Below the pieces are notes generated by a model. That model did no database searches. It was not told where the DNA came from and worked only from the letters and a program-made list of their open reading frames with translations. A stretch of DNA of 23,204 nucleotides from a virus. The position numbers and the translations under genes were made by a program. This document shows, piece after piece, positions 1-11,069 of the stretch. The stretch is from positions 1-23,204 of the IMG/VR virus record IMGVR_UViG_3300045994_000005; one strand, given 5' to 3'. How positions within the stretch are numbered: the first letter of the stretch is position 1; each line of letters opens with the position of its first letter.

Positions 1-197
1 GTTTTCCTGATATTGCGGTTTCCATTGGCAAAGTAACCGCACTCATAGAAATTAAAGATGGGTCCAAGCCACCTAGTGCAAGAAAGCTCACACCAGACGA
101 GGTTAAGTTTCATGATGAGTGGCAGGGTTGGGTAGAGATAGTTTGTAGTGTAGATGATGTGGTTAATTTAGTTAACAGGATTCGTAATGGCTCTTGA
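1..197 (+). CDS. VRR-NUC-like nuclease, C-terminal part (5' truncated)
   Basis: The frame is open from the window edge (codons from position 3) to TGA 195-197, giving about 64 C-terminal residues. It starts FPDIAV and continues to IEIKDG. The P-D followed about 15 residues later by E-x-K is the signature of the PD-(D/E)xK nuclease fold as found in VRR-NUC/Holliday-junction-resolvase-like phage proteins. The following segment KPPSARKLTPDE is also typical of those phage proteins, which usually sit at the end of the replication module. The product is probably a small structure-specific DNA endonuclease acting in recombination or DNA processing. The N-terminus lies outside the window, so full length and first catalytic residues cannot be checked. 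It overlaps the next gene by 11 nt. The fold assignment is from motif recognition only. Confidence 0.72.
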   Translation, partial: FPDIAVSIGKVTALIEIKDGSKPPSARKLTPDEVKFHDEWQGWVEIVCSVDDVVNLVNRIRNGS

Positions 198-366
198 GCG
201 CATGGCCTATAAAGACCCATTGATATATCTAATCCACAAAGAGAGTAAGTCATGCAAGGGTTGTGTTCATGCAAAGCCATTCATCATGCTAGGTCGTAGT
301 TATGAAGCGTGTGCAAAGGGCAAGCCATTTGGTAAGAAGTACAAATTATATAGGGAAGATAAATGA
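187..366 (+). CDS. small conserved phage protein with a Cys/His cluster
   Basis: A 59-residue protein. The start ATG 187 has AGGA at 177-180 with 6-nt spacing and overlaps the end of the nuclease gene; its TGA (364-366) overlaps the next ATG (363) as ATGA, so it is probably translationally coupled on both sides. Residues C23-x2-C26-x-H28 and C42 look like a small zinc-binding site. The rest is basic (many Lys). Similar tiny Cys proteins occur between the nuclease and the antiterminator in related podophages, but I know of no established function. A nucleic-acid-binding role is inference from charge and the Cys cluster. The gene is supported by the good ribosome site and tight gene packing. 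Confidence 0.7.
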   Translation: MALERMAYKDPLIYLIHKESKSCKGCVHAKPFIMLGRSYEACAKGKPFGKKYKLYREDK

Positions 367-704
367 ATCTTGATCGCTTAGAGTGGCACTTAGAAAATTG
401 GGCAGACTGTAACAAGGGTGGCAATGATGCGGAGATAGCAAGTCATGGTTATCCTAAAGCATCGCTAATCCTAATGGGTGGTGGTGCTGTAGGTGAAGAT
501 GATACAGAGATAGCAAGTGATGCAGCAGACGCTAATGCAGCGAGTTCAATTGATAGCATCATATACAGCCTAAGTAAGCCGAGAGTAACGGCTATAGAGT
601 ACCAGTATGGGATTAGTAAACACTTTTGGCCAACGCATGAAATGGATTTGTTAGAGGCTAAAGAGGCAATTATTAAGATAGCTGATAGACGCGGTATATT
701 TTAA
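363..704 (+). CDS. putative antitermination Q-like late regulator
   Basis: A 113-residue protein starting at ATG 363 with AGGGAAG (352-358) upstream. Features in order are an N-terminal helix with LEWHLENWADC (residues about 6-16), HGYP (about 28-31), an acidic/Ala stretch, then a helical segment with TAIEYQYG and a final EAKEAIIKIADRRG. The W-rich first helix, GYP, the Y-x-Y-G motif and the C-terminal helix resemble small phage antitermination Q proteins (phage 82-type family), which bind promoter DNA and make RNA polymerase read through the late terminator. Position supports this: it is the last gene before the late operon and is followed at once by a strong promoter and terminator. Family match is from memory of the pattern. 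A sigma-like or other late activator is the main alternative. An internal 12-bp direct repeat (432-443 and 507-518) gives two EIAS peptides. Confidence 0.5.
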   Translation: MNLDRLEWHLENWADCNKGGNDAEIASHGYPKASLILMGGGAVGEDDTEIASDAADANAASSIDSIIYSLSKPRVTAIEYQYGISKHFWPTHEMDLLEAKEAIIKIADRRGIF

Positions 705-719
705 TTGTAAATAATACAA
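705..719 (+). promoter_or_regulatory. upstream palindrome, possible operator
   Basis: TTGTA-AATAA-TACAA is a perfect 5-bp inverted repeat directly after the stop codon of the Q-like gene and 9 bp before the -35 box. It resembles the second palindrome inside the promoter (736-748), so both may be bound by the same dimeric regulator. Binding is inference. Confidence 0.4.
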
Positions 720-727
720 ATTAATAC

Positions 728-756
728 TTGACAAATGTAAATCTTACAATTATTAT
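728..756 (+). promoter_or_regulatory. sigma70-type promoter, putative late promoter
   Basis: TTGACA at 728-733, a 17-bp spacer and TATTAT at 751-756 form a near-consensus sigma70 promoter; the expected start site is about 763. The spacer contains the inverted repeat TGTAA-ATC-TTACA (736-748). It lies between the Q-like gene and the late genes. In lambda the Q-binding element also lies between -35 and -10 of pR', so the palindrome may be the Q site or a repressor operator. Confidence 0.75.
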
Positions 757-762
757 CACGGG

Positions 763-780
763 TAGGGAGATTTCGCCCTA
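763..780 (+). other. small hairpin at the start of the predicted transcript
   Basis: TAGGG (763-767) pairs with CCCTA (776-780) around an 8-nt loop. If transcription starts near 763, this is the very 5' end of the RNA and could act in pausing or RNA stability. Confidence 0.35.
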
Positions 781-788
781 AAGAATTG

Positions 789-824
789 AAGCCTCATGCT
801 TAACTGCGTGGGGCTTTTGCTTTT
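789..824 (+). terminator. intrinsic terminator just after the promoter
   Basis: An 11-bp stem (789-799 with 806-816, two G-U pairs) closes a 6-nt loop and is followed by TTTTGCTTTT. It sits about 25 nt after the predicted start site and would stop most transcripts at about 60 nt unless antitermination occurs. This is the order seen for lambda tR'. Confidence 0.7.
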
Positions 825-888
825 GCACAGCGTAATTAGAGCTATCACGCCACCCCAATAAATCAGGATATAACGCCTGACTGTGCAA
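823..888 (+). other. structured leader RNA element
   Basis: TTGCACAG (823-830) is exactly complementary to CTGTGCAA (881-888), and a second hairpin TCAGG (863-867)/CCTGA (876-880) stacks directly on its 3' arm. The 32 nt between are single-stranded or weakly paired. The remainder of this gene-free stretch (889-982) shows only a weak ACCT/AGGT hairpin (946-960). Role unknown; I do not recognise a riboswitch class. Confidence 0.4.
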
Positions 889-994
889 TCCCTATTCGAT
901 GTAGCTAGTCGATACAACTCCAAGCCCCTTTCTAGAAGTTGGCAGACCTCCGTGATAGGTACGTTGTGAAAATCACCATTACAAGGAATTTAAT

Positions 995-1168
995 ATGGCA
1001 GCTGGTGGCAAGGGTACAGAACGCAGACCACAACAAGTTAGCGAAGAACAAGCAGAGGCTAACTGGAATAAGATATTCGGCAAGAAAGAACAACCAGGCA
1101 ATCATCTACTTAAAGATGACGAGATGGGCTTCACTCCACTAACTAATCACATAGGCAATGACGAATAA
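995..1168 (+). CDS. small conserved phage protein (WNKIFGKK type)
   Basis: A 57-residue hydrophilic protein, MAAGGKGTERRP to HIGNDE. The start ATG 995 is preceded by AAGGA at 983-987 with 7-nt spacing. The pattern Gly-Lys-rich basic N-terminus, then NWNKIFGKK in the middle, is shared by short proteins that many phages encode in or near their late module; their job is not established. It is the first gene after the putative late promoter and leader. It has no membrane segment or Cys. A longer ORF in another frame (from 939) lacks a good ribosome site and protein-like composition, so this frame was chosen. Confidence 0.7.
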   Translation: MAAGGKGTERRPQQVSEEQAEANWNKIFGKKEQPGNHLLKDDEMGFTPLTNHIGNDE

Positions 1169-1208
1169 CACAGTGTAATAACTGTGGACAATCCCAAAGG
1201 AATCCACA
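1169..1208 (+). promoter_or_regulatory. two mutually exclusive hairpins over a ribosome site
   Basis: Hairpin A is CACAGT (1169-1174) with ACTGTG (1181-1186), starting at the base after the preceding stop. Hairpin B is TGTGGA (1183-1188) with TCCACA (1203-1208) and has AAAGGA (1196-1201), the ribosome site of the next gene, in its loop. They share 1183-1186 and cannot form together, so this may tune translation of the small terminase gene. Confidence 0.4.
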
Positions 1209-1210
1209 AA

Positions 1211-1447
1211 ATGGCAGCGAGAATAAAGAAAGTTCACCAAGAAGATGTAAAGTCCAAGATACAGACAAGTCAGCTAATAAATAGACTTACTAATCATATA
1301 GATGGAACAATTGAACTTTCGTCAACTCAAGTAGATGCTATTAAGTTCCTTGTCAATAAAACATTAAGCAACGCACCTACTGTTACAGATAATAAAACAG
1401 AATTAACAGGCAATCTTATGTTTGAAGTTAGCTTTGGCAAAGGTTAA
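1211..1447 (+). CDS. putative terminase small subunit
   Basis: A 78-residue protein from ATG 1211 (AAAGGA at 1196-1201). An in-frame GTG at 1184 would add 9 residues but lies inside the hairpin region and has no ribosome site. The N-terminus AARIKKVHQEDVKSKI is basic and helical; then comes QLINRLTNHIDG and SSTQVDAIKFLVNKTL, a helical pair resembling a DNA-binding unit. This combination is common in short proteins encoded immediately before the large terminase in podophages and is usually taken to be the small subunit that recognises packaging DNA. It overlaps the terminase gene by 26 nt. The length is short for a small terminase (often 120-180 residues), so the role rests mainly on position and sequence style. 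Confidence 0.55.
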   Translation: MAARIKKVHQEDVKSKIQTSQLINRLTNHIDGTIELSSTQVDAIKFLVNKTLSNAPTVTDNKTELTGNLMFEVSFGKG

Positions 1448-2693
1448 AGTTAAATTTCCTACTAAGCTAAAGTTCTTATTCAAGCCTAGTAGATACAAAG
1501 TAATCTATGGTGGGCGTGGTAGTGGTAAGTCATGGGGTATGGCAAGAGCATTACTTATGATTGGTGGAATGAATAAGACCAGGATACTTTGCACACGTGA
1601 AGTTCAGAAGTCTATACAACAATCAGTACATCAGTTACTCAGTGACCAAATCGCAGAAATGGGTATGCAAGATTTCTACGAGATATTACAAACTGAGATA
1701 CGCGGTAAGAATGGCACAGAGATATACTTTAGCGGATTGAGTAACGAAACAGCTACTAGTCTAAAGTCATTTGAAGGTGTTGATATATGCTGGTGTGAAG
1801 AAGCACAGACAATCACTAAGCACTCATGGGATATTCTCATACCAACTATTCGAGCTGAAAAATCAGAGATATGGGTAAGTTATAACCCTGAGTTAGAAAC
1901 AGACGAAACACACTCAAGGTTTGCAATTAATAAGTCTAGTGATTGCCTAGTAGTTAAGATGAATTACAGCGATAACGATTGGTTTCCTAAAGTGTTAGAG
2001 GCTGAGAGGCTTCACGCTAAAGAAACTATGCGTATCGAAGATTATAACTGGATATGGGAAGGTGATTGCAAACCTGCCGTTGAGGGTGCTATCTACTTTG
2101 ATCAAGTATCAGAGGCTGAGAATGAAGGCAGACTATGTAATGTGCCTTATGACCCATTGCTTAAAGTTCATTGTGTATGGGATTTAGGCTGGAACGATGC
2201 AATGTGTATTACCTTCGTGCAGAAGTCAGCATCAGCATTACATATCATTGATTACATCGAAGGCAATCGCAGAACTTACGATGATTACATGATTGAGATT
2301 AATGCTAAGAAATATAACATGGGTACGCATTGGCTACCGCATGATGGATTCAGTCATGACCCTAAGTCAGGCACAACAGTAGAGAGAATATTACAGGCTC
2401 TTGGCGCAACAGTTAGACAAGTGCCTATGTTAGACGTTGAGAATGGCATACAAACCGCACGTATGGCATTCAGAAGGCTTTATTTCGATAAGACTAAGGC
2501 TAGTAGGTTAATTGAATGTTTAAAGCGTTACAGACGCAATATCAATCAATCTACATTAGAGTTTACAACACCTAGACATGATGAGTTCAGTCATGGTGCT
2601 GATAGCTTTAGGTATGTATGTGTATGTGCTGACCAATTCTCTAATGATGAATATGGTGGAAAACTTAATTACCCTTCATTGGGAATATTTTAA
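1422..2693 (+). CDS. terL: terminase large subunit (packaging ATPase/nuclease)
   Basis: A 423-residue two-domain DNA packaging motor. Walker A GGRGSGKS is at residues 30-37, the Walker B region DICWCEEA at about 121-128 with the catalytic Glu, and SYNPE at about 153-157 is the coupling motif. The nuclease half starts about residue 250 with CVWDLGWND, whose Asp is a metal ligand of the RNase H-like fold, and ends with DEFSHGADSFRY, the usual C-terminal acidic motif. Size and motifs fit the PBSX/phage T7-style terminase family. No ATG is available before Walker A, so the start must be TTG 1422 or TTG 1434; an in-frame stop at 1404-1406 bars a longer form. The start lies inside the preceding gene, which together with the weak start codon suggests low, coupled expression. 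Confidence 0.95.
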   Translation: MKLALAKVKVKFPTKLKFLFKPSRYKVIYGGRGSGKSWGMARALLMIGGMNKTRILCTREVQKSIQQSVHQLLSDQIAEMGMQDFYEILQTEIRGKNGTEIYFSGLSNETATSLKSFEGVDICWCEEAQTITKHSWDILIPTIRAEKSEIWVSYNPELETDETHSRFAINKSSDCLVVKMNYSDNDWFPKVLEAERLHAKETMRIEDYNWIWEGDCKPAVEGAIYFDQVSEAENEGRLCNVPYDPLLKVHCVWDLGWNDAMCITFVQKSASALHIIDYIEGNRRTYDDYMIEINAKKYNMGTHWLPHDGFSHDPKSGTTVERILQALGATVRQVPMLDVENGIQTARMAFRRLYFDKTKASRLIECLKRYRRNINQSTLEFTTPRHDEFSHGADSFRYVCVCADQFSNDEYGGKLNYPSLGIF

Positions 2694-11057: not shown

Positions 11058-11069
11058 CGCAGTGATGCG
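11058..11069 (+). promoter_or_regulatory. CGCA-GTGA-TGCG hairpin before the capsid gene
   Basis: A perfect 4-bp stem with the GNRA-type tetraloop GTGA ends 3 nt before the capsid ribosome site. The same 16 bases (AACGCAGTGATGCGCT) recur at 15673-15688 upstream of an ejection gene. Confidence 0.55.

Follow-up and report, generated by a model that had tools for sequence, protein, structure and literature searches.

In this study, we analysed a 23,204-base virus record, an IMG/VR fragment called the window here in its full length, and describe at its beginning what is most likely the late switch of an unnamed family of small Q proteins, ordinary in its logic and position and unusual in being without a canonical pause element. 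The 113-aa protein encoded at this switch is, with good confidence, a small Q-type processive antiterminator. A Q-type reading had been put forward in a preliminary description of this DNA, and it is now supported, as far as sequence comparison can carry it, by the position and anatomy of the locus, the recurrence in homologues of the same triad of gene, promoter and terminator, a remote profile relationship to Q-like families and a related phage in which Q gene and promoter have been replaced together; from these observations we infer that the protein would bind RNA polymerase, bring about antitermination and load in the region of the promoter and transcript start. On the other side, no curated family model matches the 113-aa protein and some loci that carry the conserved upstream gene C59 have no clear triad.

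Results

Organization of the late-switch locus

The features of the locus are listed in Table 1. The last gene before the switch, represented by its C-terminal part, encodes a small phage nuclease, which in tblastn searches has 47-55% identity to phage genes annotated as endonuclease, and the same gene precedes C59 in the related contig L150 and the Q homologue in contig L151. The start of the 113-aa ORF overlaps the stop codon of C59 in an ATGA at 363-366. From the position of the promoter, transcription would start at about 763, and the terminator, with a stem of 12 pairs (6 of them G-C), a loop of 6 and then TGCTTTTGC, lies about 25 nt beyond this point; the RNA from 763 to 823 folds with a z-score of -4.97. 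When the region 705-994 was shuffled 1000 times with dinucleotide content preserved, an equally good promoter arose in 5 shuffles, an equally good terminator in none and both in the right order in none, and even a loose combination (9/12 promoter bases and a 7 bp stem within 130 nt) arose only twice. The arrangement of a Q-like gene, a near-consensus promoter and an immediate terminator, as first described, is thus present, and the triad with the 113-aa ORF is real and beyond chance. The complete switch spans less than 500 bp.

Table 1. Features of the late-switch locus in the window
Feature	Position	Strand	Basis or remark
Nuclease, C-terminal part	3..197	+	Small phage nuclease; 'endonuclease' in relatives
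C59, 59-aa cysteine protein	187..366	+	SCKGCVH motif; conserved before Q genes of several families
113-aa Q-like putative antiterminator ORF	363..704	+	Homologues and profile match to Q-like families
Two near-identical imperfect palindromes	703-719 and 733-749 (span 703..749)	+	30 bp apart; second inside promoter spacer
Late promoter	728..756	+	TTGACA (728-733), 17 bp, TATTAT (751-756); 11/12 consensus bases
Start-of-transcript hairpin	765..782	+	GGG-N6-CGCCCTAAA; between promoter and terminator; motif conserved, folds
Intrinsic terminator	788..823	+	Stem 788-817 and T-rich tail; sequence, folding, conservation
Conserved leader RNA	825..915	+	After terminator; outer stem 825-830/881-886, inner hairpin 863-867/876-880
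First late genes	995..2693	+	57-aa ORF 995-1168, candidate small terminase to 1447, terminase large subunit to 2693

Downstream of the switch, the terminase large subunit was recognized by Pfam PF04466 (E 1.4e-35), and the ORF in front of it matches ORFs located directly before the same gene in loci L036 and L100, which makes it a candidate small terminase. As had been claimed for packaging, head and lysis genes, all recognized downstream genes up to 22782 are on the + strand; these are the terminase large subunit, an SU10-type portal, an SU10-type capsid and lysozyme, together with further late ORFs.

Short hairpins with a GUGA loop were also seen just 5' of late-gene starts, at 11062, 15679 and 20622, with looser copies near 945, 2700 and 10085. 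Strict matches on the + strand number 5, against 0.42 expected by mononucleotide shuffling, and 3 of the 5 stand before start codons. Three near-identical copies of such hairpins occur in L023, at 87, 1839 and 3567. L023 is a neighbour by its portal and was rejected as a comparison for the switch, as it has extra genes at that place and no switch.

Homologues of the 113-aa protein and remote homology to Q families

Searched directly and on its own, the 113-aa protein had no match in phages, viral contigs, Pfam (nothing at E 10), PHROGs (nothing at E 1), NCBIfam or the PDB, where the chains compared by sequence included 21Q; weak superantigen-like and DAHP synthase matches were dismissed as noise. 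The protein has one cysteine, no PF03589 match and no C-x-x-C pairs of a zinc finger. AlphaFold models built from one and from three sequences were poor (pLDDT 43 and 52), and a fold search with them, uninformative at this model quality, returned no structural relative.

Homologues were nevertheless found step by step. A full-length homologue with 30% identity is present in the Burkholderiales-order prophage L118, among 399 genomes from the order of a Nitrosospira genome, and a second one, in L112, was located through searches with C59. Once these two had been added to the query, a further scan of viral sequences gave the IMG/VR contigs L150 (44-45% identity) and L151 (34%). Because the L150 homologue is 45% identical, we consider the 113-aa ORF a real gene. 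With the window protein, the family therefore has five members here, of which the one in L112 reaches an E value of only 0.007 against phrog_79.

The preliminary description had called for a search for the same triad in related phages, and a promoter-like pair and a terminator do follow the homologue gene in all four relatives. The order in L150 is nuclease, C59, homologue, TTGACA-17-TAATTT, terminator and late genes. L151 has the nuclease and no C59, and its homologue is followed by an extra small ORF and then by a weak promoter (TTGAAC-17-TCTAAT) and a terminator. The promoters of L150 and L151 were read by eye after a simple promoter scan had missed them, with least certainty for L151.

A profile of the five members was compared by hhalign with an alignment of nine Q-like proteins, two of which match phrog_79 'anti-termination protein Q-like' (3e-16 and 8e-33); these two come from the prophages L026 and L099, which were found through their terminase and have the matching gene at the switch position. 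The comparison gave an E value of 8e-5, limited to about 68 N-terminal columns, and a score of 31.2, against 10.9 +/- 2.1 for column shuffles (maximum 18.9; 0/150 as good) and 11.2 for a reversed profile. The window sequence alone gave no signal against a profile of the proteins found in Paraburkholderia phage IPK and contig L017, and the match appeared only when the homologues were added. Judged from these profiles, the 113-aa family is remotely homologous to Q-like proteins and lies outside the curated families. A search of the genomes with phrog_79 itself returned mostly frames of about 200 aa aligned to its C-terminal part; it was not used as evidence because these hits are probably sigma factors.

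C59 marks the position of several Q types

Homologues of C59 were found in IPK, in the IMG/VR contigs L017-L019, in the prophages L108-L117, in L150 and in a third related contig, L153. It was a profile search of the 399 genomes that gave such loci, and a peptide-pattern search of genome contigs gave none. In IPK the gene after C59 encodes a 142-aa protein of PHROG 19609, a gene that is also present in Burkholderia phage Magia, there after a RusA gene. In both phages a promoter-like pair stands next to the end of this gene; Magia has an annotated terminator, and the IPK record ends in a terminator-like repeat. The order in L017-L019 is C59, Q-like gene, promoter, terminator and late gene. C59 thus precedes phrog_19609-type genes in IPK, L017 and L108, and phrog_19609 is linked to phrog_79 via L093. 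In L114, L115 and L117 (genome G064) it precedes a zinc-finger protein, which in L115 has a weak match (E 0.001) to phrog_127, the lambda Q family. The succession of nuclease, C59, Q, promoter, terminator and late genes recurs beside recognizable Q-family genes, and the Q-like genes that follow C59 fall into at least three different kinds. Because it precedes several kinds of Q it is a useful marker, and perhaps it is a functional partner of Q.

No clear triad was seen at the C59 loci L109-L111 and L113. Another protein follows C59 in L109 and L110, and L111 has no recognizable Q; a promoter was found in neither L109 nor L113, and the one in L110 is weak. The protein in L109 (1678-2241) and L110 (1677-2201) is also encoded in L073 (726-1223), where it stands just before a promoter and tandem terminators; it is 165-188 aa long, has no family match, carries a WAYETT...RPIVKISSVN motif and is a possible further Q type. 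In L019 the C59 gene (2968-3165) has an in-frame TAG stop and may be broken, and the Q gene is still open. The genes of phiAC-1 at the switch position (L013) were judged by eye to be unrelated. In 12 prophages of Nitrosospira and Nitrosovibrio (L057, L058, L060, L061, L064, L068, L071, L074, L080, L081, L084 and L089), a perfect promoter, TTGACA-16-TATAAT (12/12), stands before terminators 5' of the terminase; most of them have a conserved TCCATATTGTGGA-like palindrome in the transcript start, with no obvious Q gene directly upstream.

Q gene and promoter have been exchanged together

An exact match to a 21-base string of the leader RNA led to contig L153. Compared with the window it has kept C59 (protein z 27), the terminator (z 10.7) and the leader (z 12.2), whereas the Q gene (protein z 2.1) and the promoter region (z -1.3) cannot be aligned; between the window and L150, all five segments align (terminator z 5.9). 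By motif and alignment, the Q gene of L153 resembles the type found in IPK and L017. Since the flanks are conserved and both Q gene and promoter differ, the two have been exchanged as one unit. This is the strongest functional clue that we have: a regulator would be expected to move together with the site on which it acts, and such an exchange speaks for the 113-aa protein and the other Q type having the same role. Given the joint exchange of gene and promoter, the mechanism is most likely Q-type antitermination.

Start of the transcript: no -10-like element and a conserved hairpin

Known Q proteins depend on two DNA elements, a binding element within the promoter and a -10-like sequence where the transcript begins (PMC6606751, PMC9371919). 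We compared 16 promoters for a hexamer with A at position 2, T at position 6 and at least 3 matches, located 4-8 nt past the -10. It was present in 9 of the 16, as against 3.2 +/- 1.5 in shuffles, of which 2/2000 reached as high a count. None of the five family members (window, L150, L151, L118 and L112) has such a hexamer at these offsets, as compared with 9/11 of the other switches, a split with a chance of 0.005, or 0.01 after merging of near-duplicates, in a test that was devised after the sequences had been viewed and on a small sample of five and 11. The register in L150 and L151 could be off because their -10 is weak.

Where the -10-like element would be, the window, L150 (2889) and L151 (3073) have in common a GGG-N-CGCCCTAAA hairpin, a motif that is absent from L153 with its other Q type. 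We raise, as a tentative idea that we hold with low confidence, that the family with Q proteins of about 110 residues loads at a conserved RNA hairpin, GGG-N-CGCCCUAAA, via a hairpin pause or direct RNA contact, instead of using a sigma-dependent pause at a -10-like sequence. If true, this would be a route not described for Q proteins.

Palindromes and leader RNA

Within the window, TGTAAATNNTACA occurs without mismatch only at the two palindromes, which are possible protein-binding sites. The second one puts a palindrome at 736-748 in the spacer, where a Q-binding element between -35 and -10 might lie, but neither palindrome is conserved in L150. They also bear on a different reading, in which the 113-aa protein would activate or repress the promoter by binding DNA and the terminator would serve as a simple attenuator or insulator, partly read through by late transcription. 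Two matching palindromes that flank or overlap the promoter would suit such a protein, and a repressor would make sense at a near-consensus promoter that can fire unaided. However, L150 has a protein of 45% identity and yet does not have the palindromes, whereas every homologue has the terminator, which persists even where the Q type changes, and the profile match is to antiterminators; we consider this reading unlikely.

A conserved leader RNA follows the terminator in the window, in L150 (2949-3041) and in L153 (2706-2843, with an insertion inside), and all three share an invariant TTCGATGTAGCTAGTCGATAC, at 895-915 in the window. Compensatory changes among these three sequences affect 4/6 outer and 4/5 inner pairs; the stem arms were registered by hand because MAFFT had shifted one arm by two columns. 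As the folding of single sequences is not unusual (z -0.7 to -1.6), the evidence for structure is the covariation. These changes, and the start hairpin conserved in three phages, would be consistent with RNA-based antitermination, in which the start hairpin and the leader modify polymerase or respond to a factor and the 113-aa protein is accessory or unrelated. We regard this as very unlikely, since the hairpin is lost in L153 along with the change of Q type and so tracks the protein, and the leader lies 3' of the terminator, too late to prevent termination there.

Searched against Rfam, the leader RNA gave nothing at curated thresholds. A sub-threshold Rfam match to the small RNA isrJ (E 0.36) could point to the RNA of about 55-60 nt between promoter and terminator as a regulatory RNA, with the neighbouring gene doing another job. 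This match is far below the curated score, sub-threshold Rfam matches were not counted as evidence, and the conservation reaches the Q gene as a linked unit, so that this explanation appears highly improbable.

Discussion

According to the model that we favour, Q-type antitermination, the 113-aa protein would be made at the end of an early or middle operon, after the nuclease and C59. The late promoter probably fires constitutively, giving a short RNA that would stop at the terminator. Once enough of the protein is present, it would engage RNA polymerase around the promoter and the transcript start, and polymerase modified in this way would then read through the terminator into the packaging, head, tail and lysis genes.

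It had been suggested that the unit is very compact and might be a minimal new branch of this control. Its compactness is not special: the start lies 21-28 nt from the terminator stem in L026 and about 20 nt from it in L032, and this similar spacing rules out compactness as a mark of novelty. The branch nevertheless looks distinct, because it has neither a Pfam, PHROG or NCBIfam match nor a -10-like element where other switches usually have one. The protein is indeed small, and the family is among the smallest candidate Q proteins, although at 113 aa it is barely shorter than the PF06530 model with its 118 positions. According to published structural work, no Q protein can do without a binding element and a -10-like pause sequence (PMC9371919), and a family that has the promoter-terminator-late-gene logic but not the -10-like pause would show another way of loading an antiterminator. 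A switch this short should lend itself to work with purified components.

Among known systems close to that of the window, the proteins of PF06530, PHROG 79 and the unnamed PHROG 19609 share with the window protein the N-terminal profile homology, a similar length and the place before a late promoter and terminator. The window protein differs from them in having no single-sequence match and in a shorter C-terminal segment, the part in which a sigma-4-like helix-turn-helix would be expected and which lies beyond the profile match, and their switches usually have a -10-like element whereas that of the window does not. In lambda (NC_001416), too, Q closes the early genes and is followed by promoter, terminator and late genes. 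However, its Q protein (PF03589, phrog_127) has 207 aa and a zinc finger and no homology to the 113-aa protein, its terminator is much further from the promoter, and the -10-like AACGAT 6 nt past its -10 has no equivalent in the window. AlpA of Pseudomonas aeruginosa, which has no sequence homology to 21Q and yet a similar fold, needs a -10-like CACGAT at -1 to +5 (PMC9371919). Like the window it is a non-lambdoid case with a promoter followed by an intrinsic terminator; nothing comparable to its CACGAT element is present in the window. In phage 21, the small 21Q engages polymerase at a promoter that is followed by the intrinsic terminator 21tR' before the late genes (PMC6606751), and in these respects the window is alike. 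Between -35 and -10, 21Q has a direct repeat as its binding site, and it also uses a -10-like pause, whereas the window is without a -10-like hexamer at 4-8 nt past the -10. The fold of 21Q and AlpA combines a ring-forming N-terminal segment with a C-terminal helix-turn-helix, and the profile match of the 113-aa family covers the N-terminal part only. Finally, in having Q gene and promoter as an exchangeable unit, the relatives of the window resemble the lambdoid phages, and such an exchange of gene plus promoter offers a practical way to recognize Q genes that are missed by every family model.
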